Shown one piece after another: positions 14,896 to 50,083 of a DNA stretch of 64,000 nt. Numbering within the stretch: the first letter of the stretch is position 1; each line of letters opens with the position of its first letter. Made by a program: the position numbers and the translations under genes. The notes below the pieces were generated by a model, which had not been told where the DNA came from, made no database searches, and worked only from the letters and a program-made list of their open reading frames with translations. The stretch is from Aquimarina spinulae (lineage in GTDB: Bacteria > Bacteroidota > Bacteroidia > Flavobacteriales > Flavobacteriaceae), in assembly GCF_943373825.1 (NCBI RefSeq), contig NZ_CALSBP010000002.1, positions 3,833,501 through 3,897,500 of the forward strand. Reading direction: 5' to 3'.

Positions 14896-15012
14896 TATAC
14901 AACAAAAGAATATATGTACCAGTACACATATATTCATTTTGTATTCATTATGCTTATATTTTCGTTTTGCCGTTTGAACCGTTATTAATTATACACTATA
15001 CCATATTGGCAT
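14896..15012 (-). repeat. Short-type hairpin spacer element
   Basis: TATACAAC (14896-14903) is followed by a perfect 10-bp hairpin GAATATATGT/ACATATATTC (14908-14917 and 14925-14934) and then TTTTGTATTC. The hairpin may also terminate the HxlR transcript. The tail (ATTTTGTATTC...TATATTTTC...TTTTG) recurs in the element near 15.6 kb. Confidence 0.45.
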
Positions 15013-15017
15013 TCGTT

Positions 15018-15461
15018 TTATTTCTTCAATTCCATATGTAAAATCGGGTAAGGCTTTCCAGAGGAATCCAATTCAGAGCGACCTATTACGTCAAATCCAC
15101 AATGTTTATAAAACCCAACTCCTTGTTCATTCTGTTCATTCACGTCAACTTTGGTAACATTTAAATTATTAATTGAATAGTCTAATAATGTCTTGCCAAT
15201 TTTTTTTCCTCGATATTCAGGATCAATAAATAACATTTCTAAATTCTGCTCGGCAACACCAAGAAAACCAACTATTTTCTTGCCATTGTTTCTTATGCAT
15301 CTTAATTCAACCGCATCCAAGTATGTATTTAAGATTAGGGGTTTGAAATATTCGATATCTTCTTCTTTTAAAAAGTGATGGGTTGCTCTAACCGAAGACT
15401 CCCACACATTTACCACTTCCTGGTATTCTGTTTTATTAATGGTATCTATTTCTTGTCTCAT
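15018..15461 (-). CDS. GNAT family N-acetyltransferase
   Basis: 147 residues, a single complete GNAT domain. The acetyl-CoA-binding motif A is LFIDPEYRGKKIGKTLL (about 76-92); the C-terminal motif is GVGFYKHCGFDVIGRSELDS, as in YjaB-like acetyltransferases. The substrate is unknown. Such genes are the commonest cargo of bacterial gene cassettes. It has no operon partner. Confidence 0.87.
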   Translation of the reverse strand: MRQEIDTINKTEYQEVVNVWESSVRATHHFLKEEDIEYFKPLILNTYLDAVELRCIRNNGKKIVGFLGVAEQNLEMLFIDPEYRGKKIGKTLLDYSINNLNVTKVDVNEQNEQGVGFYKHCGFDVIGRSELDSSGKPYPILHMELKK

Positions 15462-15472
15462 TTCCTTAGTTC

Positions 15473-15665
15473 TGACTAACAGTAAATTTTTGCTTCAAAT
15501 CTACTCTAAAATTTTATCTGTTAGCTTAAGAAATTAATAGAGTTTCTTTATGTGGGGAATTACTGCTAATAAAGATGTGTGTGCGTCAGTATATATCTAT
15601 TTTGTATTCTTTATATTTTCATTTTGGCACTTACTTGCTATGTTTTGTTATATAATGTTATCTAC
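15473..15665 (-). repeat. Degenerate spacer element between GNAT and DUF3841 genes
   Basis: It begins TGACTAACAG and ends TATAATGTTATCTAC. The last nine bases, GTTATCTAC (15657-15665), are the reverse complement of GTAGCTAAC at 16269-16277 on the other side of the DUF3841 gene with one mismatch. The interior resembles the element at 14.9 kb. The two arms of this copy no longer pair well. Confidence 0.45.
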
Positions 15666-15670
15666 TTTTT

Positions 15671-16258
15671 TTATTTTGCTATAAATTTATCCACTTTAAT
15701 TACATCTTCCAGCTGTAATTCCCAAAAGGTAGCTTGAATTTTCTTTTCTTGAAATGGTAAAGTATAATACTCTAAGTCAAAATTCATGTCAAAAATCTTT
15801 TCCCAACTCTTCTCAATTAGATTTTTCTCTAGTTTTGATAATTTCTCAAACTCGTCATTACCGCGTCTTTTTTCGTATTCGTTAGCCTCTATTTCAGAGT
15901 CGGCTATATAATCTTTATAACTAAGTGGCCAATGCCATAAAATGAAATCTGACAACAAAATATCTTTCTGTTCTTTTTCGATTTCTATTCGATAACCAAC
16001 GGTTCCGCTTGGTAGATGACCAGATTTCCTTAAATCAGGTTTTCTTTTATTAGAATCAAAATGTTGATACCAAGCCCATACAGGAAATTGATTTGTTTTT
16101 TCAGGTTTACCAATCCGATTACTCATTTGGATTTTCATCCATTCATAACCAGATTTGAAATCAGGCTTTACGAACTCCTCTTTTGGTATTAAAAATCCTT
16201 TCTTCTGTAATTCGTTCCATCCACTTTCATTTTGTATTGTCCAGAGTTTGATTTTCAT
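15671..16258 (-). CDS. DUF3841 family protein
   Basis: 195 residues, full length for DUF3841. Family features are the N-terminal MKIKLWTIQNESGWNELQKK, the FPVWAWYQH motif near residue 80 with its conserved aromatic residues, and DFILWHWPLSY near 125. The domain has no established function but is often a single-gene cassette in mobile arrays. It is bounded by GTTATCTAC and GTAGCTAAC, complementary in 8 of 9 positions, placing the gene in one cassette. Confidence 0.8.
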   Translation of the reverse strand: MKIKLWTIQNESGWNELQKKGFLIPKEEFVKPDFKSGYEWMKIQMSNRIGKPEKTNQFPVWAWYQHFDSNKRKPDLRKSGHLPSGTVGYRIEIEKEQKDILLSDFILWHWPLSYKDYIADSEIEANEYEKRRGNDEFEKLSKLEKNLIEKSWEKIFDMNFDLEYYTLPFQEKKIQATFWELQLEDVIKVDKFIAK

Positions 16259-16268
16259 TCAGTGAATT

Positions 16269-16465
16269 GTAGCTAACGTCTCGGCTATGGTTTGTACGGG
16301 AATTAAAAGTAGTGAACTTTCGATTAAGCACTTAGCCAAAACTTTTTATTTTGTTTTAATTTTTCATTTTAAAGCCAAATCAAAAGATTTGGCGTACATT
16401 CTAAATATAGACAGACCTTCCCTCAAAGACTAAAACCCGTATTAACTATAGCCATTGTTGTACCC
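16269..16465 (-). repeat. attC-like palindromic element
   Basis: Outer arms GGCTATGGTTTGTACGGG and CCCGTATTAACTATAGCC pair imperfectly over 18 bases; an inner hairpin AAGCCAAAT/ATTTGGCG forms the core. Plus-strand ends are GTAGCTAACG and CATTGTTGTACCC. The stop codon of the NrfD-like gene (16442-16444) lies inside the right arm, so its last residues are encoded by the element. Confidence 0.7.
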
Positions 16466-17011
16466 AGTTTTTTTTCTTTTTATTATTTCAAATATTCCCA
16501 ATGTCAGCATTACAATTACTAAACCTTGCAAAAAGAATATTCCAATTCCATACGAAGCAGATTCCATTAGTCCAGTATTCCAATATTCAGTACCGTAATC
16601 TCGATGAAAACTTGTAACTATAATTACAAAACGTTCAAAATACATTCCGCTTTTCATTCCGAATGCAACTAATAAGACATACCAAAATTTTGATGCTAAT
16701 TTTCTTATAAATAAAGTCATAGGTAAAATTAAAGCACCTAAAAACATCATCCAATATGCCCAAGCATAAGGTCCAGTTGCACGATTGATAAAGGCGTGTT
16801 CATCCGGATTAACAGCCATTCCGATTAGATAGAAAGTAAAAGTGACTATTGTATAAATAATGATTATCCAACGAATTAAATTCAGAGCTTTTTTCGTTTC
16901 AAATCGGTTTTTTAAAGTCAGTTTGACAACCATTAATATAAGAATTATTGGAATCAGGCAATAAATCAGATTCGCATCAACTATTTCAATAATCCTTTTA
17001 TATAATTCCAT
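16442..17011 (-). CDS. NrfD/ActC-like membrane protein, C-terminal-type domain only
   Basis: 189 residues with five or six predicted membrane helices. The middle matches the C-terminal region of the NrfD-like quinol-interacting subunit of alternative complex III (ActC): NRATGPYAWAYWMMF, then GMYFERFVIIVTSFHRDYG. Full ActC/NrfD proteins of this type have about 450 residues and ten helices, so this is a half-size version with its own ATG start. No other complex III gene is nearby. It is enclosed by GTTGTACCC (16457-16465) and GGGTACAAC (17043-17051), a perfect 9-bp cassette boundary. It may be a captured fragment or a stand-alone small membrane protein; quinone binding alone is unproven. Confidence 0.65.
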   Translation of the reverse strand: MELYKRIIEIVDANLIYCLIPIILILMVVKLTLKNRFETKKALNLIRWIIIIYTIVTFTFYLIGMAVNPDEHAFINRATGPYAWAYWMMFLGALILPMTLFIRKLASKFWYVLLVAFGMKSGMYFERFVIIVTSFHRDYGTEYWNTGLMESASYGIGIFFLQGLVIVMLTLGIFEIIKRKKTGYNNGYS

Positions 17012-17042
17012 TTTTAGTTTTGCTTATGTCGCTCGTCAAATT

Positions 17043-17100
17043 GGGTACAACAAAGATATAAAGGATATATGTCCTTTATATTTCCTGTATGGTTATTTAT
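17043..17100 (-). repeat. Short-type attC-like hairpin
   Basis: GGGTACAACAAAG is followed by a perfect 10-bp stem ATATAAAGGA/TCCTTTATAT (17056-17065 and 17072-17081). GGGTACAAC is the exact complement of GTTGTACCC beyond the stop of the NrfD-like gene. Confidence 0.6.
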
Positions 17101-18619: not shown

Positions 18620-19729
18620 TTATTTCAGGAAATGTGGTAATACATAGGCGTACATCATATCGAAAGGCTGCTTGTTTACAATAGGTTTACCATAATTACT
18701 TCCTGTAAAAACAATGACCAAATTATCTAGTTCAGGAACGAGCATGATATAGTTCCCTCCGTTTCCGAAAGTGAATTTTAATGTAATTTCCCGATCTTTT
18801 ATTTTTGCTTTTTCGGTGTACCAATAATAACCGTAGGTAGCAGCGTTTTGCCCTTCCCAGGAATTGCCAGCTGTATTAAAAAAAGAATAATTTTGCGGCA
18901 ATTCTACCTTTTCACTTAAAATTACGTTGATCATTTTTTCCGAAATCACCTGCTTTCCGTTATACTTTCCTTTATTGATGACCATATGACCTATGGTAAG
19001 CATATTTCTTGGTGATATTCTTAGATTACCGGCAGTAAAATACCTCCCCGTCATTTTATTCTTTGCCCATCGATAATGGTTTGTAATATCTAAAGGCTTA
19101 AATAAATAGTCTGAAGCAAATTCTGCAATACTAACATGAGATGCATCACTAATTACCGCTCCCATGATCATTGGAGCCGTACCTGTATAAAGCCATTTTT
19201 CCTTTGGAGAAAAAGCCATTTTTTGATCAAGGCCATATTTAACCCAGTCTTTTTGGTCAAACATTTTATCTTCACAATCCGGAAATCCCATATCTCCAAA
19301 AAACTGCTCGCAACCAATTCCGGTTCGCATGGTCAATAAATCTTCAACGGTTATCAAAGATTTTCTATCGTCCCAATTGTCTAGATTATCTTTGTTGTAT
19401 TGAGGAAGGTAGGTGAAAATAGGTTCGTCTACTTTCAGGATTCCTTTATCCACGGCGATTCCTGTTAATAGAGCCGTTATTGATTTGGTAGTTGACCGAA
19501 CATCTTGCAGGCTGTCTTTTCCATAACCGTTAAAGTACTTTTCAAAAAGAAGATTGTCGTTTTGGGAAATAAGAATGGCATTAGTCGCAGGGTATTTTCC
19601 GTTTTCTATTTCTGAAAACAATTGTTCAACAGGGTTTTTTTCTTTTGTGGTTTCCTGTTGCTTTTTAACATCAGAATTGCACGAATAGCATAACGAAAAA
19701 AACAATAAAAGATAAAGAGGTTGTCTCAT
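18620..19729 (-). CDS. Serine hydrolase, class C beta-lactamase/DD-peptidase fold, lipoprotein-like
   Basis: 369 residues. The N-terminus is a short hydrophobic signal ending in cysteines (FFSLCYSCNS), consistent with a lipoprotein. The nucleophile motif SxxK is S79-T-T-K82 (DVRSTTKSITALL); the second motif appears as YTG in KWLYTGTAPMIMG. The protein belongs to the esterase/beta-lactamase (EstB-like) group, and actual beta-lactam hydrolysis is not implied. It is first in an operon with the RDD and anchored proteins. An attC-like element lies just upstream. Confidence 0.85.
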   Translation of the reverse strand: MRQPLYLLLFFSLCYSCNSDVKKQQETTKEKNPVEQLFSEIENGKYPATNAILISQNDNLLFEKYFNGYGKDSLQDVRSTTKSITALLTGIAVDKGILKVDEPIFTYLPQYNKDNLDNWDDRKSLITVEDLLTMRTGIGCEQFFGDMGFPDCEDKMFDQKDWVKYGLDQKMAFSPKEKWLYTGTAPMIMGAVISDASHVSIAEFASDYLFKPLDITNHYRWAKNKMTGRYFTAGNLRISPRNMLTIGHMVINKGKYNGKQVISEKMINVILSEKVELPQNYSFFNTAGNSWEGQNAATYGYYWYTEKAKIKDREITLKFTFGNGGNYIMLVPELDNLVIVFTGSNYGKPIVNKQPFDMMYAYVLPHFLK

Positions 19730-19751
19730 AAAACGTATTATTTCGATAATT

Positions 19752-19942
19752 GGTTACAATGTCTCGTATAAGAAAGATATGACATGTGATAAGCAATATG
19801 TTTCGGGTTGATAATAAGCCAAATATAGTATTTTACTTTTATTTTTTTAGAAACGCCAAATTTTGTGTTTGGTGACAGTGTAAATAAACTTGACCTTTCG
19901 ATTAAGTGCAAAAGCCCTATGTTTTCTTATGCATTATTGGTA
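19752..19942 (-). repeat. attC-like palindromic element
   Basis: Arms CGTATAAGAAAGATA and CCTATGTTTTCTTATGC pair imperfectly. The core repeats GCCAAAT/ATTT...GGT, as in sister elements. The outermost box is degraded (GGTTACAATG instead of AAC-G). It is closely similar to the element at 24.3 kb, including the stretch AAGCCAAATATAGTATTTTA. Confidence 0.65.
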
Positions 19943-19950
19943 TTTCGTTT

Positions 19951-21423
19951 TTATTTCCTTTTTTTAAAAATTGAGGTTGATACTCCAGATTCTATTTTGA
20001 ATTCAATTTGATCAATTTCACCGGTTGTATTTGCGTGAACATGAAAAATAAATACTTGGGCTTTACTTTCCAAATCTAAATCGACTTGAAAATTGTTAAA
20101 CCCTTTATGCTCCATTTTGCTTTCAAAATCATGAAACTTGAATAAAAGCTTTTTATTTTTTTCGGAAATACTAATGGTTCCATATATTTTATCCTCATAA
20201 GTGCCAATGTATTCATTAAGATCATGTAATAGAGGTATTTCTTTTTTAGTTTTATACTTGTCTTTTTTTGGTTTTTTATATTCTAATGATTCTTCCCATT
20301 CATAATTTCTCTCATAATTATCGTCTACAAATATATTTAGAGCGTAATCTGTCATTATAGAAACATAATTAGTCCAAGAATTAGACATAATTGCGATACC
20401 AAACTTTTCGGTAATTACGGTTACTTTGGACACGAATCCATCTATGCCGCCGTCTTTTTGTATAAATCTTTGTTCATTGTATGGAGCTGTAAGCCATCCA
20501 TTAGAATAGCTAACTGACCTACTTGGGTTAAAAGGGGCGTGAGCACCTGTTAAATAATCAAATTGGTTTTCGCTAATGAAATTACTGTTTTCAACCTTGC
20601 CTTTGTTTGCCAGCATTTGAATCCATAATGCCATATCGTGAGGTGTCGAGGATATAGACCCTGCTGGCGCAATAACATCAATATTTTGATAATCAACCTC
20701 TGTTTTTCCATCTAACTTGTAACCTTTTGATTTTTCTTCATAATCAAAATATTGTTGAAATGAAGTGAAGGAATTATTCATTTTTAAAGGCCTGAAAACT
20801 TCTTCATAAACTAAATCATCCCAACTTTTTTTGCTTACGTTCTCTTCAATTATTCCTGCGACTAAATACATGAAATTATTGTAGCTATGTTGTTGTCTAA
20901 ATGAATATTTTGATTCCATATAAGGAAGCTTCTCTAATATTTCATCTCTTGTAATTGAAGAGTTGTGGTAATATAGCAAATCATACCTTCCTACTCCAGT
21001 CATATGAGTAAATAAGTCTTTAATAGTAGCATTTTGAGTGACATATTCGTCTGCTACCTTAAATTCTGGATAATACTTTTTTACAGGTTTATCCCAATCT
21101 AATAATCCTTTTTCTATAAGTTTTGATGCTATAAGGCTGGTTATCGGTTTTGTGTTTGAACCTATTGGAAATAAGGTGTTTTTTGTTACTGGTTTTTTAT
21201 GTTCTACATCCCGAAAACCGAGACCACCTTGATAGATTATTTTTCCATCATAGACAAGAGCTAAACCAACACCAGGAGTATTAGACTTTACTCTTAGAGA
21301 ATCTGTTAACTTTAAAAAATAATTTAGTTTTTGATCTATTGTTTTTGTTTCTGATTGACTATAGGATAAAAAATTAAAAAAAATTAAAAATATGGGTGTA
21401 CTAATATGTTTAATAAAGATCAT
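19951..21423 (-). CDS. Serine hydrolase (beta-lactamase family), secreted
   Basis: 490 residues with a signal peptide (about 1-22, ending FLSYSQ). The beta-lactamase-fold domain covers about 35-370: SxxK at S89-N-T-K92 (FPIGSNTKPITSLI), the YxN-type motif in HSYNNFMYLV, and DGGIDGF in place of the KTG/HTG box. Residues 390-490 form a beta-rich C-terminal domain of the DUF3471 type often appended to these enzymes. It is the last of three genes with the next hydrolase and a seven-helix AraC regulator. Confidence 0.88.
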   Translation of the reverse strand: MIFIKHISTPIFLIFFNFLSYSQSETKTIDQKLNYFLKLTDSLRVKSNTPGVGLALVYDGKIIYQGGLGFRDVEHKKPVTKNTLFPIGSNTKPITSLIASKLIEKGLLDWDKPVKKYYPEFKVADEYVTQNATIKDLFTHMTGVGRYDLLYYHNSSITRDEILEKLPYMESKYSFRQQHSYNNFMYLVAGIIEENVSKKSWDDLVYEEVFRPLKMNNSFTSFQQYFDYEEKSKGYKLDGKTEVDYQNIDVIAPAGSISSTPHDMALWIQMLANKGKVENSNFISENQFDYLTGAHAPFNPSRSVSYSNGWLTAPYNEQRFIQKDGGIDGFVSKVTVITEKFGIAIMSNSWTNYVSIMTDYALNIFVDDNYERNYEWEESLEYKKPKKDKYKTKKEIPLLHDLNEYIGTYEDKIYGTISISEKNKKLLFKFHDFESKMEHKGFNNFQVDLDLESKAQVFIFHVHANTTGEIDQIEFKIESGVSTSIFKKRK

Positions 21424-21483
21424 TTTTAGAAATTGATTTTTTTGAATAGAAAAAATTGATTGACTGGCGTATTATATAAAATG

Positions 21484-22956
21484 TTAATTGTCATTTTTTT
21501 GGAGTAGATTTTCGGTATCTACTCCTAATTTTTTAAGCATCATTAGGCTATTCGTATTACTGGGATTAAGTACTGCTGATTTTTTATAGTTAATAATAGC
21601 TTCTTCTTTTTCATTGTTCTTCATCAATGCTTCACCATAACTATTATAAACATTCGAAGAAGTAGGAAATACTTCTGTATTTAATTTGAACACTGTAATA
21701 GCTTTTTCAATTTCTCTATTTCCTAAATAATAATACCCTAAAGAATTTAATTGATTCTCTCCAAAATCATAATTATCGCTTTTATTTTTCTTTAGTTTCC
21801 AATACGTTATTGTAGCTACTTCAATTCCTTCATTTTCTATACTTTTTTTGAGAGGTACAGTAATAGAAGTTTTTTTTAAGGCTGATGTAGAGTCTAATAA
21901 ATGGATTCCGATATCATCAATATTTACATTATCTTTTGAATTTGTGAGTACAATCACTCCTTTATCTCCATCTTTAATGAAGCCTGCAAATGCTCTATAA
22001 CCTCCTGTGGCTCCAGTATGAAATACGATTTCTAGCTTATCACGCAACAGAATATGCCACCCTAGACCCACCTTGAGATCACTACGTATATTTGTTGTTT
22101 TTCTATGTGACAATTGCATTGCAGGGTACAAGTCACTCTTTATTAACCCCATATTGGCTGCTAAATAATTGATCATATCTGCAGCTGTAGAACGAATAGC
22201 CCCCGCACCAGCTAAAGTTGGGATGTCCCAATTTTCCACTTCCTCACCAATACTATTATGTCCAATAGCCAAGTTTTCTTTCATTTTATGTGTAAAGGTA
22301 ATACGTGTATTTTCTAGTTGTAAAGGATTAGCTATGATTTCTGTCATTAATTCTTCATAGCTCATTTGTCTTTTATTAGCCAATACATGCCCCAATAAAC
22401 CTTGAGAGTAATTAGAGTATTCATATGTAGAACCAATATCTCTGGTAATTTGATAGTTATCTAAAAAAGTATATAGTTGCTTTTCGGTATAATCGACATA
22501 CGGATTTGCTGAATTTACCGGGGCAAAGTTACCTGGCATTCCTGGAAGCGAAGAAGTATGATTAGACATTTGGGATAGTTTGATTGATTTCCCATCGTAT
22601 GTTGGCGCCGTTATTCCATTTGGTAAAAACTTTTGTAAAGGGTCGTCCAAATTTAACTCACCTTTAATTACCATGTCTGCTAATAAAACTCCTGTAAAAG
22701 TTTTTGAAATAGAGCCAATTTCAAAAACTGAGTTTTCATTTACGGGCTCATTGGTTTTTAAGGACTTCACACCATAACTATAATAGGTTATTCCTTTAGA
22801 AGTAATTACTCCTATAACTATTCCAGTATTAGTGCCGTTTTTTACACGCGATTTAACGTTTTCTTTAACCCCATCTGAAATAGTCTCGTTCTGAGTGAAA
22901 CATCCAGATAATATAATTTGAAATAGAATTAATAGTGTAATAATTTTTTTTATCAT
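21484..22956 (-). CDS. Serine hydrolase lipoprotein with C-terminal TPR repeats
   Basis: 490 residues. The lipobox ILSGC (Cys19) marks an outer-membrane or periplasmic lipoprotein. The hydrolase domain has SxxK at S82-I-S-K85 (GSISKTFTGV), YSN (TYEYSNYSQGLLG) and the third box HTGATGG. Residues about 395-480 hold two TPR-like repeats (YYLGNREIEKAITVFKLN; YGEALMKNNEKEEAIINYKK). This architecture is common in Bacteroidota, often next to AraC regulators. It lies 60 bp upstream of the second hydrolase and 80 bp downstream of the regulator. Confidence 0.9.
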   Translation of the reverse strand: MIKKIITLLILFQIILSGCFTQNETISDGVKENVKSRVKNGTNTGIVIGVITSKGITYYSYGVKSLKTNEPVNENSVFEIGSISKTFTGVLLADMVIKGELNLDDPLQKFLPNGITAPTYDGKSIKLSQMSNHTSSLPGMPGNFAPVNSANPYVDYTEKQLYTFLDNYQITRDIGSTYEYSNYSQGLLGHVLANKRQMSYEELMTEIIANPLQLENTRITFTHKMKENLAIGHNSIGEEVENWDIPTLAGAGAIRSTAADMINYLAANMGLIKSDLYPAMQLSHRKTTNIRSDLKVGLGWHILLRDKLEIVFHTGATGGYRAFAGFIKDGDKGVIVLTNSKDNVNIDDIGIHLLDSTSALKKTSITVPLKKSIENEGIEVATITYWKLKKNKSDNYDFGENQLNSLGYYYLGNREIEKAITVFKLNTEVFPTSSNVYNSYGEALMKNNEKEEAIINYKKSAVLNPSNTNSLMMLKKLGVDTENLLQKNDN

Positions 22957-23036
22957 GACTTTCGTTTTCGTTACACTTCAAAAATGTCATATAAATAAAA
23001 AAAGAACGTACTACTTTAATGTAAAAGCGTCCTGTT

Positions 23037-24191: not shown

Positions 24192-24273
24192 AAATTTTTA
24201 AAACAGATTCAAATCTTATTTTACAATAGTCTGCTGATATATTTTTTATTTTAAATTCTATCATTTATAAATG

Positions 24274-24466
24274 TTCTAGAACGTCTGGTATAAGAAACGT
24301 AGGGTGGGTGATAAGCGATATGTTTTGGATTGGTCCTAAGCCAAATATAGTATTTTACTTTTATCTTTTTTAGAAACTCCAAATTTTGTATTTGGTGACT
24401 TTATAAAAAAAATTGACTTTTTGATTAAGTGCAAAAGTCTTATGCTTTCTAGCATTGTTTGCAATA
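24274..24466 (-). repeat. attC-like palindromic element
   Basis: The left end is TTCTAGAACG and the right end is CATTGTTTGCAATA. Arms GGTATAAGAAACGTAGG and CTTATGCTTTCTAGC pair imperfectly, and the core carries AAGCCAAAT and AAATTTTGTATTTGG. GTTTGCAATA (24457-24466) is complementary in 9 of 10 positions to TATTGCTAAC at 25283-25292, bracketing the gene between. Confidence 0.7.
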
Positions 24467-24467
24467 G

Positions 24468-25282: not shown

Positions 25283-25420
25283 TATTGCTAACGGTTTTGT
25301 ACAAGGCACATTGTGATATTTATAATTTATATTATTCAGTCGTAACTGGGGTTAATTAGTAGGGGAGAGTTTAAAGTTAGCCAAATTTTGGCAATGTTCT
25401 TATATACAATGTTGGCAATA
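25283..25420 (-). repeat. attC-like element, short variant
   Basis: About 138 bp from TATTGCTAACGG to CAATGTTGGCAATA. The arms TTTTGTACAAGG and TTCTTATATACAAT pair loosely. GTTGGCAATA (25411-25420) complements TATTGGTAAC (27796-27805) in 8 of 10 positions, bracketing the S41 peptidase and AraC genes as one unit. Confidence 0.55.
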
Positions 25421-27735: not shown

Positions 27736-27795
27736 TCAATATTTTTCTTAAGACTCTTAACCATTTGTAATGTTACAAACTTATGATTTTTAAAT

Positions 27796-27997
27796 TATTG
27801 GTAACGGTCTTGTGTATGAGTAGTAAGGGAATAAATATGCAATAATTTTTCGGTTTAGCACTTAGCCGAATTTGCAATTTTACTGTTTCCTTTTTATCAT
27901 TTAACCGTCAAATTGCAAATTTGTCGGACTTCATTAATATGCACCAACTTTGAGTTTGGTACTTAACCCTTATTACTTATACACATTGTTGTAAAGC
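27796..27997 (-). repeat. attC-like palindromic element, well preserved
   Basis: The outer arms GTGTATGAGTAGTAAGGG and CCCTTATTACTTATACAC pair in 16 of 18 positions. A second, internal pair lies around AATTTGCAATTT/AAATTGCAAATTT. Minus-strand ends are GTTGTAAAGC-type (R''-like AACAATGTG) and CGTTACC. The stop of the SRPBCC gene (27977-27979) lies in the right arm. Confidence 0.78.
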
Positions 27998-28936
27998 GTT
28001 ATTCTTTTGTTTTTCTGACTCTATTTTTATATGATTAAGCACTCTTTTGTGTATTCTATGAATAATAAAGTCAGACCATGTTTTCCAATATATCTCTGGT
28101 GTAATATCGACTTTATACCAAGTTGTTCCTTCGATTTCTGTTTTGTTCTCACTAACTTTGGTTAGTTTAAATTGTCCCTTGTATGATTTAAAATAACCAT
28201 CTAAATGTTGAGGGTGAATATCCCAAAATGGATTAAATTCATTCATTGGTATTGGTTGTTCTTTTACGTCAAATTGCAATAAGTTCGGTTCGTTCCAAGT
28301 TGTAATTGGTTCAACAAAACTACCTGTTGTAAAATTACAATACCTTACCGCTCCAACTCCGGTTCCTTTTATTGTGGCATCAGTTGGGTATGAAATACCA
28401 GTTTTAAATATCCAATCTATAGGTTCGTCAATCTTATTAAAAGTAACTACATTTTTCCAAGCTGTTTCAATTGAAGTATTTACAATGATTTTTGTCCTAA
28501 CTGGAATTAAATTTTCTGGTTTGTTTACGTAATCAAAACTCATAGAACTAATGCAAATTATGAAAATTCCAATCGTCGTATTAGTGGGATTTATCCATTT
28601 TCCTGTATTGGATTTAAAACCCAAATATGAGCCAAACCAAACTAAAAGCCCTAGTATTGGAGAAGCCATAAATATGCAAATCAGTCCTTCAATAGCAAAT
28701 ATTAATAATCCGATAATTGCTACTCCTAAAGTTAATAAACTTAAACTGTAACTTTCATTTCTGCTGATATCTTTAAATCTACCAACAATGTAAGGCGGTA
28801 AAAAACCAATTAGAAATGGTATTACCAAGAATATAGTCCAACCATAATCTTTAAAAATTTCAATCGAAACAAATCCTATAATTGCAGAAAGAATTAAAGT
28901 GAAAGTAATTGAAATTAACTTAATGTTCTTTTTCAT
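27977..28936 (-). CDS. Membrane protein with C-terminal SRPBCC-like domain
   Basis: 319 residues. Four to five membrane helices fill residues 1-150. The C-terminal part (about 150-305) resembles a polyketide-cyclase/SRPBCC domain (TKIIVNTSIETAWKNVVTF; EGTTWYKVDITPEIYWKTW). The last residues, ALQQCV, are encoded by the downstream palindrome, which also supplies the stop codon. Complementary 10-mers GTTGTAAAGC (27988-27997) and GCTTTACAAC (28954-28963) enclose the gene exactly. Ligand and role unknown. Confidence 0.75.
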   Translation of the reverse strand: MKKNIKLISITFTLILSAIIGFVSIEIFKDYGWTIFLVIPFLIGFLPPYIVGRFKDISRNESYSLSLLTLGVAIIGLLIFAIEGLICIFMASPILGLLVWFGSYLGFKSNTGKWINPTNTTIGIFIICISSMSFDYVNKPENLIPVRTKIIVNTSIETAWKNVVTFNKIDEPIDWIFKTGISYPTDATIKGTGVGAVRYCNFTTGSFVEPITTWNEPNLLQFDVKEQPIPMNEFNPFWDIHPQHLDGYFKSYKGQFKLTKVSENKTEIEGTTWYKVDITPEIYWKTWSDFIIHRIHKRVLNHIKIESEKQKNNALQQCV

Positions 28937-28953
28937 TCGGTTTTTTTTCTAAT

Positions 28954-29153
28954 GCTTTACAACGGTCTTGTGTATGAAATGTAGCATGCAAAAAGACACT
29001 AACTTTTCGGTTTAACACAGAACCGAATTTTTATATTTTGTTTTAATTTTTTAATTCTTAAAGCCAAATTTTTAATTTGGCGGTTTTCATAAATAAATAC
29101 AAACCTTTGGGTTTAGCACTTATTAGTTATGTTTTATACACCGTGTTGGCAGG
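28954..29153 (-). repeat. attC-like palindromic element, well preserved
   Basis: Arms GTGTATGAAATGTAGC and GTTATGTTTTATACAC pair imperfectly. The core hairpin AAGCCAAATT/AATTTGGCGG is intact. Ends are GCTTTACAACGG and GTGTTGGCAGG. GTTGGCAGG complements CCTGCCAAC on the far side of the DUF1801 gene. Confidence 0.78.
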
Positions 29154-29160
29154 TCGTTAT

Positions 29161-29595
29161 TTATTTTCTACAAGCGCACTTATGGTGTTCATTGAGATAA
29201 GCAATTGTTTCCATACTAAGTTTTTCTACAACTGGAATATTTATGTCAGCTAATTTCTTAAAATAAATACAGGCTTTGCCCATTTTGAATTTCCCTAAAT
29301 CTGTTAAAAGCGCATCACTTTTATCTGTCTTCGAATAGACATAGAGTGAAAACTGAGCTTTTCGTGGTGAGAAACCCAGCAAAGGAGCGTCGCCTTCATG
29401 TCCACTTGCGTATTTATAGTGATAGCTTCCAAAACCTATTATAGTTGGTCCCCACATTTTAGGTTCAAAACCTGACCATTCACTCATTAACTCTAATAGC
29501 ATATAACTGTCAGCTTTCTTTTGATCATTATCTACAAATGATTCAATAAAATCAAAAACATCTACTTCTGTTTCGGTAGTTTTATTTTTGGCCAT
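29161..29595 (-). CDS. DUF1801 family protein
   Basis: 144 residues. The DUF1801 (YdhG-like) domain occupies about 15-135: MLLELMSEWSGFEPKMWG, IIGFGSYHYKYASG and LGKFKMGKACIYFKKLADI are typical. A Cys pair sits near the C-terminus (HHKCACRK). These small proteins have a TATA-binding-protein-like fold and no known reaction. It is a single-gene cassette: the perfect 9-mers GTTGGCAGG (29145-29153) and CCTGCCAAC (29626-29634) enclose it. Confidence 0.85.
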   Translation of the reverse strand: MAKNKTTETEVDVFDFIESFVDNDQKKADSYMLLELMSEWSGFEPKMWGPTIIGFGSYHYKYASGHEGDAPLLGFSPRKAQFSLYVYSKTDKSDALLTDLGKFKMGKACIYFKKLADINIPVVEKLSMETIAYLNEHHKCACRK

Positions 29596-29625
29596 TTCTG
29601 TAATTATTTAAGTTGTTTTCTAATG

Positions 29626-29823
29626 CCTGCCAACGTTCAGTATAAGAAACGTAGGGCAGGTAATAAACTATACGTTTCGGTTTGATACTAAGCCAAATAT
29701 AAATATTTAGTTTTTATCTTTTTTCTCATAAACGCAAATTTTATATTTGGCGATTTAGCAAATAAATACCGACTTTTCGGTTAAACCTAAAGCACTATGT
29801 TTTCTTATACATTGTTGGCTGTA
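29626..29823 (-). repeat. attC-like palindromic element, well preserved
   Basis: Arms GTATAAGAAACGTAG and CTATGTTTTCTTATAC pair nearly perfectly. The core has AAGCCAAATATAAATATT and AAATTTTATATTTGGCG. Ends are CCTGCCAACG and CATTGTTGGCTGTA. Read on the minus strand it runs from GCCAACAATG to CGTTGGC, close to the simple attC layout. Confidence 0.78.
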
Positions 29824-30375: not shown

Positions 30376-30470
30376 TACTGCCAACGATAGAATATAACAC
30401 ATATGTCCTATATATTCTATGTACTATATCCCCACTTTGAAGATATTGATATTTTTTCAACTATAGTTGT
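30376..30470 (-). repeat. Short-type hairpin element, left copy flanking the BNR-repeat gene
   Basis: TACTGCCAAC is followed by the 8-bp hairpin AGAATATA/TATATTCT (30389-30396 and 30411-30418). The tail CCCCACTTTGAAGATATTG onward recurs at 33.87-33.91 kb beyond the next gene in the same orientation. Confidence 0.55.
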
Positions 30471-33760: not shown

Positions 33761-33833
33761 ATAGTTGTTTTTGATTCGTGATTTATGTGAAAGTTGAAAG
33801 AATGTAATCATTGCTTAAAGATTTGTTATAATG

Positions 33834-33912
33834 ACACACAATAACAGGATATAAGATATACATTATATGTATTATCCACTTTGAATATTGTATGTTTTTT
33901 GATCTATAATTG
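33834..33912 (-). repeat. Short-type hairpin element, right copy flanking the BNR-repeat gene
   Basis: ACACAATAACAGG, then an imperfect hairpin around GGATATAAG...ATATACAT/ATGTATTATCC, then CCACTTTGAATATTG and TTTTTTGATCTATAATTG. The tail aligns with the copy at 30.4 kb. Around it, 33761-34120 has no gene. Confidence 0.5.
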
Positions 33913-34120
33913 ATAAAAATAGCATCTTTATTCCTTGCTTTGGTACTATTTATAGAAAATGTGACAAATGTTATCCAGTATGTGATAATTTTTGTTATGT
34001 TTTTTTTGATCCCTTAAAACGGTTTATTACAACTTATATAAAAAAGCCTTCAATAGTACTAAAAAAAACCTAATTTTCAATTAAACCCAAAAAGTTCAAA
34101 TGAGTTCACTTTATTAATTG

Positions 34121-34286: not shown

Positions 34287-34337
34287 TTATTCCAATACCT
34301 ATTTCTAAAATAATTTTCATTTTTCTTTATTCAACTT

Positions 34338-34474
34338 GTAGCTAACGGCCTTTTGTATGAGTAGTAGTGGGTTTTTACTCACAAACCTTTCGGTTTAGAA
34401 CTAACCTTTGTTTTATGTTTACACTTTTTGTTTTATCATTTAAACCACTATTACTTATACACTATGTTGCGGTG
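34338..34474 (-). repeat. attC-like palindromic element
   Basis: Outer arms TTGTATGAGTAGTAGTGG and CCACTATTACTTATACAC pair in 15 of 18 positions. At 137 bp it is shorter than most because the GCCAAAT core is missing. Ends are GTAGCTAACGG and CTATGTTGCGGTG. GTTGCGGTG (34466-34474) complements CACCATAAC (34815-34823) in 7 of 9 positions. Confidence 0.72.
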
Positions 34475-34814: not shown

Positions 34815-34905
34815 CACCATAACAAAGCTATAACAGCAATTGTTATTATATCCCTTGTAATTGATATGAATATGTACAAATCTAAGTGATTTTTGATCAA
34901 TTCAG
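34815..34905 (-). repeat. Short-type hairpin element upstream of the MazG-like gene
   Basis: CACCATAACAAAG, then the hairpin ATAACA/TGTTAT around 34831-34847, then a tail with ATATCCC and GTGATTTTTGATCAATTC related to the tails at 30.4 and 33.9 kb. It ends about 90 bp before the LytTR gene. Confidence 0.45.
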
Positions 34906-39181: not shown

Positions 39182-39263
39182 ACATTCTTTGTTCTCCAGG
39201 TGTATTGAAAAAGGAGTACTTTTAATCAGGATATTATATAGAAGTACAGGCTTTAAATGTATG

Positions 39264-39457
39264 GTTAGGGTGTAGTGTATGAAACGTAACGTTTAAAAAT
39301 ACACTAGCTTTTCGGATGAACGCAGAGTTAAATTTTAAAAGCCCGTGCTGAACTTGTCGAAGTGTGGGTTTGAAAATTTGAAGGTCTTCTAAATATACAA
39401 CTACTTTTGAGCTAGGTGCTTATTAGCTATGCTTTACATAGGCACGCTGTTAGTGGT
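39264..39457 (-). repeat. attC-like palindromic element carrying a REP-like insertion
   Basis: This is the main content of the 417-bp gap 39182-39598. Arms GTGTATGAAACGTAACG and TTAGCTATGCTTTACATA pair imperfectly, and the right end is CGCTGTTAGTGG. Where sister elements have the GCCAAAT hairpin, this one has GTGCTGAACTTGTCGAAGTG (39345-39364), resembling dispersed TTCGACAAGTTCAG repeats. Confidence 0.62.
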
Positions 39458-41302: not shown

Positions 41303-41435
41303 CTAAAACTCCTATTTAATATTTTGTTGCTTCTTGTTTACATTCATCTATTTATTCGTTTGTCAGTCTATTTTGAGTTGTCAAATACTTTATGAAATGT
41401 TCGTTAAGATACATAGTTTACACAAGTTAAAGATT

Positions 41436-41577
41436 AGGTATTACTAAGTCAAATTTACATATTTTGCTTTTATTTTTTTCTAAATGCTAAATTGAAAATT
41501 TGGTGATCTCATAAATAAGCACAGACTTTGAAATTAAACATGAACCGCTCTATGTTTTCATACATTGTTGTTGCCAG
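41436..41577 (-). repeat. Partial attC-like element (right half)
   Basis: Only the core and right arm are recognisable: AAATTGAAAATTTGG, then CTATGTTTTCATACATTGTTGTTG. The matching left end could not be found, so the element appears truncated. Confidence 0.5.
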
Positions 41578-43577: not shown

Positions 43578-43711
43578 GCATACAGCGGTTTGTGTATGAA
43601 ACGTTGGGCATTTCAAAGCACTTTCCTTTCAAGATACTACAAATTAATTAAATATAATTATCTTTGAATATAGTATTATTCGTCCAATGATTTATACACT
43701 TTGTTAGACAC
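43578..43711 (-). repeat. attC-like palindromic element, reduced
   Basis: Arms GTGTATGAAACGTTGG and CCAATGATTTATACAC pair in 13 of 16 positions. At 134 bp it lacks the GCCAAAT core. GTTAGACAC (43703-43711) complements GTGCCTAAC (47268-47276) in 8 of 9 positions, so the next seven genes behave as a single multi-gene unit. Confidence 0.68.
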
Positions 43712-43720
43712 TGGCTTATT

Positions 43721-47244: not shown

Positions 47245-47267
47245 ATTTTATCCATTTTGTTTAGTTT

Positions 47268-47512
47268 GTGCCTAACGGCTCGGCTATGGTTAGTATTGGA
47301 ATTAAAATTACTGAATTTCCGATTAAGCACTTAGCCAAAACTTTTTATTTTGTTTTATATTTTCACTTTAAAGCCCACCGAAGGACTACAACTATCAAAA
47401 TTAAAATAAAAACCATAGTTGTAAATCAATGAGATTTGGCAGACTTCATAAAAACACACTAAACTTTGGGTTAAGCACCAAAACCCGTATTAAATATAGT
47501 CATTGTTGTGTG
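47268..47512 (-). repeat. attC-like palindromic element with extra internal hairpin
   Basis: At 245 bp this is the longest copy. Outer arms GGCTATGGTTAGTATTGG and CCCGTATTAAATATAGTC pair imperfectly. On the minus strand it ends CCGTTAGGC, a perfect GTTRRRY core. Inside the GCCAAAT hairpin an extra segment with the inverted repeat ACAACTAT/ATAGTTGT (near 47389 and 47416) is inserted. GTTGTGTG (47505-47512) complements CACACAAC (48031-48038) exactly. Confidence 0.78.
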
Positions 47513-47522
47513 GCGTTGTTTT

Positions 47523-48014
47523 TTACGTTTCTGCTATTCCGCCAATGCTAATTATTTTATTGTTTTCAAGTCTTATTTCAATTCCGTGTTCTGTGTCAAT
47601 TTTATAATGAATTGGAATTTTTATATTTCCATCTTGAAGAATTCTGATATAATTAATGTCTTTTATATATTCAAAATGAGATTCTTTATTTGATATATTT
47701 AATGGTTTTTCTCCTGATTTCTCTTCATTTTCATAGTGATGAGCATACAGTTTTAGATATCTCTCAAAAGTCTTTTCTTTTATTTCTTCAATAACTTTAT
47801 CTAGTTCAGTTATAAAATTCGAGTAAGTCTTTTCAAAGTCATCCAGTTCATTATTTGATGGTATTATTTCTATTTCCTCACCGTCTTCGTCATATTCCTC
47901 ATTCAAAAATATTCTTATATGTTTATTATCAAAATAGCGTGATATAAATTCTGTTTCCGCAGAAAATCCAGCCCAATCTTCCTGAATTTCACCCCAATAT
48001 TTATGTTTGCTCAT
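47523..48014 (-). CDS. Hypothetical protein, possibly immunity-like
   Basis: 163 residues, no signal or membrane segment, acidic in the middle (FLNEEYDEDGEEIEIIP). The N-terminal KYWGEIQEDWAGFSAETEF and the beta-rich C-terminus ENNKIISIGGIAE resemble immunity-type or DUF6985-like proteins, but this is a weak impression. It is a single-gene cassette enclosed by perfect complementary 8-mers (47505-47512 and 48031-48038). Confidence 0.6.
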   Translation of the reverse strand: MSKHKYWGEIQEDWAGFSAETEFISRYFDNKHIRIFLNEEYDEDGEEIEIIPSNNELDDFEKTYSNFITELDKVIEEIKEKTFERYLKLYAHHYENEEKSGEKPLNISNKESHFEYIKDINYIRILQDGNIKIPIHYKIDTEHGIEIRLENNKIISIGGIAET

Positions 48015-48030
48015 ACTTTTGTTTTAATGA

Positions 48031-48222
48031 CACACAACGGTCTTGTGTATGAAACGTAGCGTGCAAAAAGACGCTAACTTTTCGGATTATCACAGAGCCG
48101 AGTTTTTATATTTGGTTTTTTTATATCAAAAGCCAAATTTAAAAATTTGACGAACTTAGTAAATAGTAGCGAACCTTTCGATTTAGTACTTATCAGGTAT
48201 GTATTATATCCCGTATTAAGTG
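48031..48222 (-). repeat. attC-like palindromic element
   Basis: The left half is almost identical to the element at 28.95 kb (AACGGTCTTGTGTATGAAAC onward). The core hairpin AAGCCAAATTT/AAATTTGACG is intact. The right arm (TATTATATCCCGTATTAAGTG) has diverged and pairs poorly. Confidence 0.65.
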
Positions 48223-48237
48223 TTTTTTATTCTCCAA

Positions 48238-48648
48238 TTATATTTTTTCAGGTAATTTCGTCTTAATTTCTATATCATGCTTATTAAATAAGTTATAATT
48301 TATGACACTGTCTCCTTGAAGTTCGTCTAATCTCTTTATTCTGTTCATAGGCGAGTCATCTGTAATTCTCATTATTTGATGCCCATATTTTTCAATGCGA
48401 TCACTAGGAAAAACTAAATGCCCATAAATATAACACTTTGACATCTTTTTGAAAATAGATTTCAGACCAGTATTTTTTGTTTGTAAATAAACTGATAAAT
48501 CATACATGAAGTTCTCAATCCAACTAATTTCTATGATAAGAGTTCCTTCTGTTACATTTCTTTCCGCTTTTAAATAATAGGATGTATCAGCATATTCTCT
48601 TTTATGTTCTTTAATTATTTTCCATTTCATAGTGGATTTTTTTAACAA
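48238..48648 (-). CDS. Hypothetical protein
   Basis: 136 residues (130 if the Met at codon 7, MKWKIIKEH, is the start). Soluble and mixed alpha/beta, with YADTSYYLKAERNVTEGTLI and a basic helix GLKSIFKKMSK. No family recognised. Its position between two attC-like elements on the common strand suggests a single-gene cassette. Confidence 0.55.
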   Translation of the reverse strand: MLKKSTMKWKIIKEHKREYADTSYYLKAERNVTEGTLIIEISWIENFMYDLSVYLQTKNTGLKSIFKKMSKCYIYGHLVFPSDRIEKYGHQIMRITDDSPMNRIKRLDELQGDSVINYNLFNKHDIEIKTKLPEKI

Positions 48649-48679
48649 TATGAATTAATTGAACTCAATTTTGTTATTG

Positions 48680-48732
48680 CACACAACGTTTAGGCTAAAA
48701 AGCGTTTTAATGCTTTTTAGGTTTGTTAGCTG
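48680..48732 (-). repeat. Classical-length short attC-like site
   Basis: 53 bp, with a 9-bp hairpin CTAAAAAGC/GCTTTTTAG (48694-48702 and 48711-48719). On the minus strand it reads CAGCTAACAAACCTAAAAAG to GCCTAAACGTTGTGTGC, close to the simple attC organisation. GTTAGCTG (48725-48732) is the exact complement of CAGCTAAC (49714-49721) beyond the next two genes. The stop of the HEAT-like gene (48726-48728) lies inside this box. Confidence 0.72.
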
Positions 48733-49361
48733 ATTGCGATATAATTTAATGCTGTTTTTATCATTGTAATAGTATTCTCGTCTTTATTATTAAGTTTTAG
48801 CTCTTCTATTTTTTTAAGTATTATGTTTCTATAATCATCAGGAAATAAAACTTGCAAGCTTTCAATAGCATATTTTAAGTCGTACTCATCATAATGATAT
48901 TCGATTACTTCCATTAAAGCACCCTTTATTTTTTCATATTCAATAGTATACCTTGAGAGTAATTGAATTGCTGTTGTTCTGATAAGTTCTCTTTCATCAA
49001 AAGCATAGATAAGAATTTCATCCAAACCCTTTTGTAAAGGGATATTTATAGAATACAATGCATCTAACACGTTGTGTAAATTATCATCATGATAATCCTC
49101 AACCTTTATTTGACCTATAAGTATGTTCGTGGCTTCACCGGCTCCTGCATTTCTACCTATATACATTAAAATGTCATAGGCATACTTTCTGGTAGTTTCA
49201 TTGTCATCATTTTTAATATAGGTATTAATTTCAGTAATTAAACTTGTATCATTTAACTGTTCTGCAGCTCTATATGCTTCCCACGATAAAGTTTTGTTTC
49301 CTATAGCTTCATTGCCGTCTTTTACACCAGACATAAGTTCTATGAGCTCATTTATTTCCAT
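48726..49361 (-). CDS. HEAT-repeat-like helical protein
   Basis: 211 residues made of regularly spaced helix pairs typical of HEAT/ARM-like repeats (LSWEAYRAAEQLNDTSLITE; ETTRKYAYDILMYIGRNAG; ELIRTTAIQLLSRYTIEYEK; YDLKYAIESLQVLFPDDYRN). Such proteins mediate protein contacts and are common as immunity proteins. Its ATG overlaps the stop of the upstream 91-residue gene by one base, so translation is coupled. The pair forms one cassette bounded by GTTAGCTG and CAGCTAAC, both perfect. Confidence 0.7.
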   Translation of the reverse strand: MEINELIELMSGVKDGNEAIGNKTLSWEAYRAAEQLNDTSLITEINTYIKNDDNETTRKYAYDILMYIGRNAGAGEATNILIGQIKVEDYHDDNLHNVLDALYSINIPLQKGLDEILIYAFDERELIRTTAIQLLSRYTIEYEKIKGALMEVIEYHYDEYDLKYAIESLQVLFPDDYRNIILKKIEELKLNNKDENTITMIKTALNYIAIS

Positions 49362-49636
49362 TATTGATCGCTCATTTCATATAGTTCAACTGATTTTATA
49401 TTTTTTATATAAACCATATATTCTTCCTCTTTGTTATCTTCAGTATAAGTTGGGAAAACAGTCTCTTCACAACGTTTAAAAATTACCCTAGGATCTTCTT
49501 CTTTATAGTTAAAACCATTGATTTTTGTGATAAATGGTTTGTACTTTTTTGATTTTAAAATAATAGTAATCTTATCATCAAATGTTTTATAGAGAATTAA
49601 ATCGTCTAGTATTTCACTTCTTTGCGTAGATGACAT
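49361..49636 (-). CDS. Hypothetical protein coupled to the HEAT-like gene
   Basis: 91 residues, soluble, beta-rich start (DDKITIILKSKKYKPFITKI) with an acidic C-terminus. No family recognised. It overlaps the next gene by one base (TAATG) and shares a cassette with it, which suggests a functional pair such as a complex or a two-part immunity or modifier. No toxin-like motif was seen in either. Confidence 0.55.
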   Translation of the reverse strand: MSSTQRSEILDDLILYKTFDDKITIILKSKKYKPFITKINGFNYKEEDPRVIFKRCEETVFPTYTEDNKEEEYMVYIKNIKSVELYEMSDQ

Positions 49637-50083
49637 AATTTATTGTGATTTTTTAGCTTTAGTTAATATTTTTAATATTATAGTTGAAATAGGTTTGATA
49701 TTGATTGGGCTTGCAGCTAACAACCAAATATACCCAATTGAGTATATTTCTTATATGTCCTAAACAAATCTAACTTATTTTTGGTAAACATGATATTATC
49801 CAATCATATAGATATGATCTCTCTACTGTATTTGGGATGATGAGAAGACATAATAGCGTACTTTAACAAGACTAACAAGGCTTTGAATCTTTCTACACAC
49901 TTAAGATGAAATGGGTTTCGGGTTAAAAACTATTCTCTATAATTATTCAATTAAGTGTTAAAATCATACTTTTTAAGCATTAATTACCACTATTGCGGAA
50001 ACCCGTAATAAACGTATTATTTAGTACAGTATCTTTATACTAAGTTGAGTTTATATGATTGTAATTTAAGTGGTTAAATGTGT
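49637..50083. other. Right edge of the accessory array
   Basis: 447 bp with no convincing gene. CAGCTAACAACC (49714 on) and the perfect hairpin AAATATAC/GTATATTT (about 49726-49749) mark the last recognisable cassette boundary. Beyond it only AT-rich DNA precedes the hut operon; no integrase, attI-like site or promoter could be identified with confidence. Confidence 0.45.

Follow-up and report, generated by a model that had tools for sequence, protein, structure and literature searches.

In the 64,000-nucleotide stretch of Aquimarina spinulae DNA analysed here (the window), no fewer than 13 attC-like sites were recognized together with five clear attI-like palindromes, every one of them on the minus strand. 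The window is very probably an integrase-less portion of an integron-type system of gene cassettes that is native to Bacteroidia, a real integron class that apparently was undescribed before. This reading draws on arm complementarity between consecutive sites, cassette edges at G|TT, the position of attI, the mobility of single units, phylogeny and a missing integrase insertion, each of which is demonstrated at the level of sequence. The initial annotation had suspected a chromosomal cassette array or a distinct but analogous system, and the latter form is supported in that the logic of an integron is present with an integrase other than IntI. It had also described the array as lacking a visible integrase. 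This holds for the window, where no Phage_integrase-family recombinase was found (five places elsewhere in the genome encode one), but the genome-wide search that it proposed located a likely integrase, a 375-amino-acid tyrosine recombinase (Bint), on another contig, where the gene is followed by a palindromic attI and then by a cassette array. Bint is the likely enzyme of the window array.

Most attC-like sites in the window are ~200 nt long, and the sites examined for these features show an R'' ending in AAC, an R' beginning with GTT and joining at G|TT. The covariance check suggested in the initial annotation gave matches with a model (R1) made from window sites: the seven sites used for training were recovered by construction, and e41, f39, g34 and c47 (the last split in two pieces) were additional matches at E<0.01. 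Rfam matched nothing. Loci L014 and L016 of the same genome also hold sites at E<0.01, all on the minus strand, and the array extends rightward past the window edge (L016). Three control stretches (L015, L017 and L018, 48 kb together) gave zero sites at this level. Each of the three outcomes that the initial annotation had named as refuting thus failed to occur: covariance matches were obtained, related genomes differ at single units, and the control stretches have no sites. A whole-genome search, which scored 150 candidates out of 5,702 from a first look, produced 45 matches at E<=1 (37 of these at E<=0.05), the majority grouped in few arrays and some solitary, with three of the 45 on the plus strand.

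Covariance matches, arm complementarity and G|TT edges together confirm the array of attC-like sites that had been noticed by inspection. Its supposed ends at 14896 and 49721 are attI-like palindromes with GTT starting at 14903 and 49721, and the perfect GTTAGGC reported at 47268-47276 was read correctly, as R' of c47 begins at 47276. Two of the original generalizations stand in part. The spacers said to follow nearly every gene are real sites, but the 3.6 kb between c47 and d43 comprise six ORFs with no site; window sites all lie on the minus strand, but one ORF of 727 amino acids (36998-39181) is on the plus strand. In the following list, attI-like palindromes are scored over 39 positions against the Cellulophaga attI of locus L052, for which the shuffled maximum is 24-26.

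49719..49757, minus strand: attI-like palindrome at the array head, 30/39; R' GTTAGCTGCAAG at 49721
48676..48725, minus strand: attC-like remnant found by eye; right arm GTTGTGTGC at 48687
48022..48222, minus strand: attC-like site b48, R1 training row; R'' matches the upstream R' at just 5/10
47523..48014, minus strand: cassette gene, 163 aa, between b48 and c47, bounded by matching R' and R''
47258..47516, minus strand: attC-like site c47, with a longer loop; R'' pairs with b48 R' (8-nt run)
43582..43713, minus strand: attC-like site d43, short; R'' against c47 R' 8/10; no R1 match
41379..41574, minus strand: attC-like site e41, right end degenerate; covariance E 8.8e-11
39252..39456, minus strand: attC-like site f39, right end degenerate; covariance E 2.4e-9
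34821..34859, minus strand: attI-like palindrome, 33/39
34340..34474, minus strand: attC-like site g34, short; covariance E 0.0086 for the right half
33843..33881, minus strand: weak attI-like palindrome, 26/39, which is noise level
30383..30421, minus strand: attI-like palindrome, 34/39; R' against h29 R'' 9/10
29617..29822, minus strand: attC-like site h29, R1 training row
29161..29595, minus strand: cassette gene, DUF1801, 144 aa; cassette bounded by h29 R' and i28 R''
28947..29154, minus strand: attC-like site i28, covariance match; R'' pairs with h29 R' (9-nt run)
27977..28936, minus strand: cassette gene, 319 aa, no Pfam; cassette bounded by i28 R' and j27 R''
27789..28000, minus strand: attC-like site j27, covariance match; R'' pairs with i28 R' (10-nt run)
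25285..25420, minus strand: attC-like site k25, degenerate; R'' against j27 R' 8/10, own R' 9/10; no R1 match
24265..24467, minus strand: attC-like site l24, covariance match; R'' against k25 R' 9/10
19743..19945, minus strand: attC-like site m19, covariance match; R'' decayed, 2/10
17049..17087, minus strand: attI-like palindrome, 34/39
16442..17011, minus strand: cassette gene, 189 aa, from the ORF list, directly after an attI-like site; resembles a stretch of Aquimarina sp. AU58
16260..16468, minus strand: attC-like site n16, covariance match; R'' pairs with R' of the attI-like site at 17.05 kb (10-nt run, 13/14)
14901..14939, minus strand: attI-like palindrome at the left end, 33/39

By eye, the leader upstream of the weak palindrome at 33843..33881 resembles the leader of the genome's own attI.

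The most telling feature is that R'' pairs with the R' of the site before it and not with its own R', the very pattern that circular cassettes leave when joined at G|TT. A complementary run of at least 8 nt links R'' to the R' of the preceding site in 44 of 88 consecutive pairs, compared with 1/88 for a site's own arms, 1/88 in reversed order and 110/10,150 (1.1%) for other loci. The relationship depends on spacing: the run occurs in 29 of 30 pairs less than 1 kb apart, in 13 of 30 at 1-2 kb and in 2 of 28 above 2 kb. (An earlier site list gave 43 of 84 consecutive pairs.) Within the window, agreement at nine or more of the last 10 nt was found with the nearest-upstream arm for 6/13 sites, with the own arm for 1/11 and with other arms for 1/210. 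The mismatch to the upstream arm in 5/13 window sites counts against the model, as do the 44 of 88 consecutive pairs that lack a long run. These pairs are mainly widely spaced, which would fit, but does not prove, the presence of undetected intervening sites. Decay is seen in several window sites, and k25, likewise a point against, is the sole one that pairs better with its own R' than with the preceding R'.

The arms also bear on a possible identity of these units as Xer-dif modules (IMEX, p-dif), which host XerC/D, or Bint itself, would mobilize in double-stranded form. Such an origin would suit Bint, an Xer-like member of the simple tyrosine recombinases that has no IntI insertion (I2), and also an attI that is a double-strand palindrome. 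However, the R arms are not fixed XerC/XerD boxes; they differ from site to site, each matching the arm at the opposite end of its cassette, and recognition of double-stranded DNA leaves that unexplained. We consider this origin very unlikely.

In the integron-type mechanism that we favour, Bint would act on two kinds of site, namely a palindromic attI of ~34 bp located past its own stop codon and the attC-like sites at cassette 3' ends, with cassettes cut and joined between G and TT. In the excised circle a cassette's R'' would rejoin its own R', and one strand would form an extended, imperfectly paired hairpin, with R''/R' and L''/L' arms, as the recombined form; the integrase would insert new cassettes at attI and shift others within or between arrays. 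That a folded single strand is the substrate, and which strand serves, we infer. The 43 joined sites (133-244 nt) fold better than shuffles, with a bottom-strand z below -2 in 42/43, which agrees with recombination of the folded bottom strand but does not prove it. Two folding results weigh against the model: the strand preference is mild (mean z -5.2 for the bottom strand versus -4.2), and one window site folded as found in the array gave z -1.75.

The integrase loci show the expected arrangement. An attI was found next to the integrase gene, where it is palindromic and lies 3' of the gene. A palindrome score of at least 9 occurs within 200 bp behind the integrase in 18 of 26 loci versus 12 of 210 other ORF ends, and the palindrome behind this genome's own integrase scores 8. 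Integrase and array run in the same direction in this genome, and sites of the same attC-like type follow the Bint gene in 12 of the 26 loci from close relatives (E<=0.01), where 29 of 29 sites are on the integrase strand and downstream of the integrase. The first cassette after the integrase shows a run of at least 9 nt in 16/21 close-relative loci (13% for mismatched loci) and in 11/16 class-level loci (19%), counts that leave out six and four loci, respectively, as too short. Background at class level is high, and among the 11 matches no fewer than two (L167, L168) resemble poly-T or repeat artefacts, which counts against the model. Several families of class Bacteroidia contain Bint homologues that show first-cassette signatures.

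Catalytic residues are invariant or nearly so among 50 Bint homologues. Bint (224 bits) exceeds the cut-off of 220 for NF040815 recomb_XerA_Arch (NCBIfam; 'site-specific tyrosine recombinase/integron integrase'). This model matches at E<=1e-50 in 290 of 295 genomes of the class, many of the frames being ~300 aa long, the length of XerC/D, and its name is therefore uninformative about cassettes. With TIGR02249 Bint scores 192 bits, under the cut-off of 265. In our tree Bint and IntI group together (99/96) against XerA and XerC/D, and after cleaning IntI (17 rows, 100/100) and Bint (43 rows, 97/96) are sister groups, whereas in a rapid preliminary tree, which included four long-branch rows, IntI was placed beside six Bint rows. 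The cleaned tree thus suggests that Bint is a sister family of IntI, outside the IntI clade. The IntI insertion of ~40 residues (I2) is absent from the Bint family: the K-to-HxxR spacing is 63-69 residues for all but one of the 43 Bint rows (the exception is unmeasured) versus 106 in IntI, where 11 of the 12 measured rows have this value and the remaining one is a trimmed chain (five of 17 rows are unmeasured), and the HMMER alignment of Bint jumps over IntI4 179-240. Bint carries a ~100-aa N-terminal extension, whose predicted fold bears a weak likeness to the XPB N-terminal and SMARCAL1 HARP domains and which may help to bind folded DNA.

These results make it hard to credit that the window is an ordinary CALIN, left by a canonical IntI integron that lost its integrase. 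The array itself, the common orientation of its sites and their GTTRRRY-type boxes would fit such an origin, and canonical IntI is present above cut-off elsewhere in the phylum (105/395 genomes). However, IntI exceeds the cut-off in only one of 295 class Bacteroidia genomes, and such sites lie behind Bint, which falls outside the IntI clade and has no insertion. Among the 21 genomes of the genus, seven contain sites while lacking an integrase at E<=1e-60, which counts against the Bint model, as does the location of the likely integrase away from the window array.

Comparison of related genomes, as the initial annotation had proposed, revealed differences at the level of single units. Up to TTCTGTTGTTA at attI, 95 of 100 positions are shared between this genome and that of Aquimarina AU58, and the agreement does not continue past that point. 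The 189-aa gene at 16442..17011 is similar (74% over 550 bp) to a stretch behind the AU58 integrase. A 517-bp unit is present in three copies in one array, with differing flanks and edges at CGTT. Individual cassettes thus appear, by comparison, to be mobile between and within genomes. Least probable of all are non-autonomous palindromic repeats (MITE/REP-like, or terminators) settled 3' of genes, which would account for many long, imperfect, AT-rich palindromes behind genes, but a unit insert would self-pair, whereas R'' pairs with the prior R' across a whole gene and the homology of identical units ends at CGTT.

The proposed Bint system resembles canonical integrons in its single cassette orientation, its R'' AAC and R' GTT sites with G|TT edges, the complementarity of R'' to the R' preceding the cassette, an insertion point beside the integrase gene and integrase-less arrays elsewhere in the genome. 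In the classic layout the integrase gene is transcribed away from the cassettes, whereas here the cassettes are codirectional with it and the palindromic attI lies behind its stop codon. Bint further differs in lacking I2 and having the N-terminal extension, and the sites are mostly ~200 nt long. A related group is the 'integron-like' subgroup of simple tyrosine recombinases of Smyshlyaev et al. 2021 (PMC8138268); for members without the insertion, the available text describes neither cassette arrays nor attC or attI sites. In another flavobacterium, Riemerella anatipestifer, an aph(3')-IVb unit with a 140-bp attC-like stem-loop enters the chromosome without flanking homology, and its authors propose site-specific recombination, with no recombinase named in the accessible part of the report (PMC13148043). 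Bint may be linked to this homology-free acquisition of gene units.

Published work regards I2 as indispensable if cassettes are to be captured and as the innovation that gave rise to integrons; how I2 and attC originated is called a 'chicken-egg paradox' (PMC4792948, PMC7790495). We tentatively suggest, at somewhat less than an even chance, that Bint represents a second, older-looking integron branch across Bacteroidia in which folded-strand capture works without the I2 helix, so that attC-type cassettes preceded I2 or I2 is dispensable, the Bint N-terminal domain having taken over recognition of the distorted hairpin. If this is true, a natural sister lineage with cassette arrays but no I2 would resolve the paradox or reveal a second solution to it, and the origin of integrons would become directly testable. 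Integron finders place an upper size limit on attC sites, and those that seek IntI and shorter sites may overlook Bint arrays. Many Bacteroidota would then possess a gene-shuffling machinery, at least one relative of which is plasmid-borne, with an enzyme that is often annotated as XerD or as a plain integrase.

The window occupies positions 3833501-3897500 of contig C2 in a 6.24-Mb genome of three contigs, for which Aquimarina sp. AU58 is the nearest named relative judged by integrase (92%). Minus-strand intergenic stretches of the window were read, and the clearest repeats were aligned. These repeats share a common plan, in which a variable left arm (R'') with an AAC end is followed by an L'' box (e.g. 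TGTATAA), an AT-rich middle carrying CCAAAT...ATTTGGC and CGAAA motifs, an L' box (e.g. TTATACA), and a right arm (R') composed of CGTT and a variable tail. Seven repeats served to train a covariance model, R1, which recovers those seven by construction. Beyond its training rows, R1 matches more minus-strand sites in the window and two other loci of the same genome, and at E ≤ 0.01 it gives zero matches in three control loci (48 kb). The whole-genome search yielded 45 places at E ≤ 1 (150 of 5,702 candidates scored), three of them on the plus strand. These comprise clusters at C2:3849-3902 kb, C3:600-620 kb and C2:2747-2791 kb, smaller groups, and scattered singles. The first cluster is the window array, which continues past the window.

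When an integron cassette is excised as a circle, its attC left arm pairs with bases from the beginning of that cassette; in the array these bases stand at the end of the preceding attC site. Each R'' is therefore expected to complement the R' of the previous site rather than its own. We collected 122 sites (127 R1 matches at E ≤ 0.001, with two two-piece matches merged and three duplicates dropped), giving 88 consecutive pairs spaced by less than 6 kb. A complementary run of at least 8 nt joins R'' to the previous R' in 44 of the 88 pairs, compared with 1/88 for arms of the same site, 1/88 for reversed pairs and 110/10,150 for pairs from other loci. An earlier run on 118 sites gave 43/84, 1/84, 0/84 and 103/9,350, respectively. 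The proportion falls with spacing, from 29/30 under 1 kb to 13/30 at 1-2 kb and 2/28 above, and short sites missed by R1 are probably hidden in the long gaps.

Within the window, at least nine of the last 10 nt match in 6/13 nearest-upstream pairs, 1/11 own pairs (site k25) and 1/210 others. Examples are R'' of site i28 (CCTGCCAAC) with R' of h29 (GTTGGCAGG), R'' of j27 (GCTTTACAAC) with R' of i28 (GTTGTAAAGC), and n16 (GGGTACAAC) with an attI-like sequence (GTTGTACCC). The upstream match is absent (at most 7 of 10) at 5/13 window sites, and the window array is therefore partly decayed. The initial annotation had claimed an array of attC-like sites, which is upheld both by the minus-strand R1 matches and by this complementarity; the covariance search it proposed, run here with our own model, separates the window from the control loci.

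Single-strand folding, also proposed there, was applied to the 43 pairs with runs of at least 8 nt from the 118-site set, modelling the circular form by joining the ends. Relative to 60 shuffles, the joined bottom strand had a mean z of -5.2 (below -2 in 42/43), against -4.2 (39/43) for the top strand and -3.2 (31/43) for the bottom strand in its array arrangement; site i28 singly, bottom strand as in the array, reached -1.75. Thus, the joined form is the better hairpin, as expected, and the folding model suggests a weak strand preference. An asymmetric step, CATAG versus CTACG, is common to 23 of the 43 joined sites and possibly corresponds to extrahelical bases.

No integrase had been visible to the initial annotation. 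This holds for the window, where none of the genome's five Phage_integrase places falls, but not genome-wide: a gene for a 375-aa protein at C3:620779-621906, the genome's best match to the integron-integrase model (TIGR02249; 192 bits, below the cut-off of 265), is a candidate integrase and adjoins an array of further site copies, which is co-directional with it. Behind its stop codon stands a palindrome (attI) with the end ...TATATTCT, followed 174 bp from the stop by GTTGTTAGGCAAC, to which the opening of the first attC-like site downstream, GTTGCCTAACAAC, gives a 13-nt match. Residues 1-80 make up an N-terminal alpha/beta domain of their own, to which no Pfam family name applies; its predicted fold weakly resembles the XPB N-terminal and HARP domains. 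Upstream of the integrase (L014:9908-9999), TATTCGAATA- or ATACGTATA-type repeats about 11 bp apart, seen by eye, form a candidate operator; such repeats recur at the corresponding place in many of the relatives' loci (L049-L074).

Relatives of this integrase occur at 26 loci in Aquimarina, Flavivirga, Lacinutrix, Dokdonia, Cellulophaga, Tamlana, Arenibacter, other flavobacteria and two other Bacteroidota bins. R1 matches at E ≤ 0.01 were found in 12 of the 26, all (29/29) on the integrase strand and behind the integrase. A palindrome of about 34 bp directly follows the integrase stop codon in most of 25 loci inspected. Its arms vary by genome (GGACATATGTCC, GTGTACCAGTACAC, AATAGCAATTGCTATT, AGTTACCATGGTAACT), yet palindromy is kept, with ends near TTGTT. 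Palindrome scores of at least 9 inside 200 bp occur at 18/26 integrase loci versus 12/210 other ORF ends; this genome's own attI scores 8. A run of at least 9 complementary to the attI-side GTT... is found again downstream in 18/26 loci, an uncontrolled count, and the controlled first-cassette test, which left out six loci as too short, gave 16/21 versus 13% of mismatched locus pairs.

Several further observations concern the window. On the minus strand of 14901-49757, a single array that lacks an integrase contains five attI-like palindromes, which represent different arm families, and a sixth that is weak. This looks as though a number of integron heads, or of units bearing an attI, had been joined in series. 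At 11379 (plus strand), an attI match reaches 27/39 (shuffled maximum 26). A broken LytTR-like fragment, recognized by eye, lies at 33812-34340 (minus strand) between site g34 and the weak palindrome, and an intact LytTR response regulator lies at 34998-35696. The stretch 18620-24191 (minus strand) encodes an AraC-type regulator and two proteins with a beta-lactamase fold (369 and 490 aa, PF00144; not a resistance claim).

Comparison of related strains reveals differences at the level of single units, with edges at CGTT. This genome and AU58 match at 94% along 7.5 kb of flank and at 88% along 2.0 kb of the integrase region; 95 of the last 100 columns before the break agree, up to TTCTGTTGTTA, past which there is no alignment. 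One genome (G005) has three copies of a 517-bp unit (98-100% identity) within a single array; the flanks differ on both sides, and the edges are CGTTA and TTGTTA. Another (G018) holds two copies of a 1338-bp unit (100%) that differ upstream of CGTT. Cross-species matches are also present, if less sharp.

All 21 genus genomes searched, among them the present one, contain R1 sites at E ≤ 0.01 (7 to 51 per genome), and 4/15 other genomes of the order have such sites. The integrase (E ≤ 1e-60) occurs in 14/21 and 1/15, respectively; among the 14, one has stop codons and one is cut at a contig end. Across class Bacteroidia, TIGR02249 exceeds its cut-off in 1/295 genomes (G176:C40:3592-4530) and reaches E ≤ 1e-25 in 151/295, with model positions ~180-238 skipped by most of the matches listed. 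Because the cut-off is exceeded in 105/395 genomes of the phylum sample, canonical IntI is widespread in the other classes but almost lacking in Bacteroidia. Of 20 class-level regions, four were too short, and 14 of the 16 used belong to other families. A first-cassette run of at least 9 is seen in 11/16 of them and in 19% of mismatched pairs; of these 11, at least two (L167, L168) look like artefacts. Nine loci overlap a shorter-flank look (some positive there); of the seven usable outside it, five reach 9.

A plasmid of Chryseobacterium sp. SNU WT5 (L209) encodes a relative of this integrase (40% identity), behind which come genes in the same direction, and is possibly a mobile form of the system. 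The automatic first-cassette scan found there an inverted repeat alone; by eye, an attC-like inner junction reads GTTACCTA / TAGGTAAC. In the plasmid collection (hits H10-H15), 24 Acinetobacter records contain a match to the integrase at E ≤ 1e-60; in those listed, identity is ~52% across residues 145-374. The protein is called TnpF in a record from uncultured bacterium HH1107.

In the sections consulted of the published work, IntegronFinder 2 reports for Bacteroidetes one complete integron, from Salinibacter, where previously only lone integrases were reported (PMC9024848). One survey would call a gene intI only if it had the additional domain or the intI patch (PMC2426708), and an archaeal study treats that domain as a defining trait (PMC9668308). 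Escudero and co-workers see I2 as what led to single-strand recombination and raise the chicken-egg paradox (PMC4792948, PMC7790495), Smyshlyaev and co-workers find the insertion incompletely conserved in their integron-like subgroup (PMC8138268), and a 2026 Riemerella paper describes a gene unit entering without homology, with an attC-like stem-loop at its end (PMC13148043). The same sections contain no description of arrays driven by the present integrase family. The system differs from the canonical integron in enzyme, attI form, layout and site length, and falls outside two IntI-based definitions and the classic layout, and it agrees with the site-based definitions. It works like an integron.
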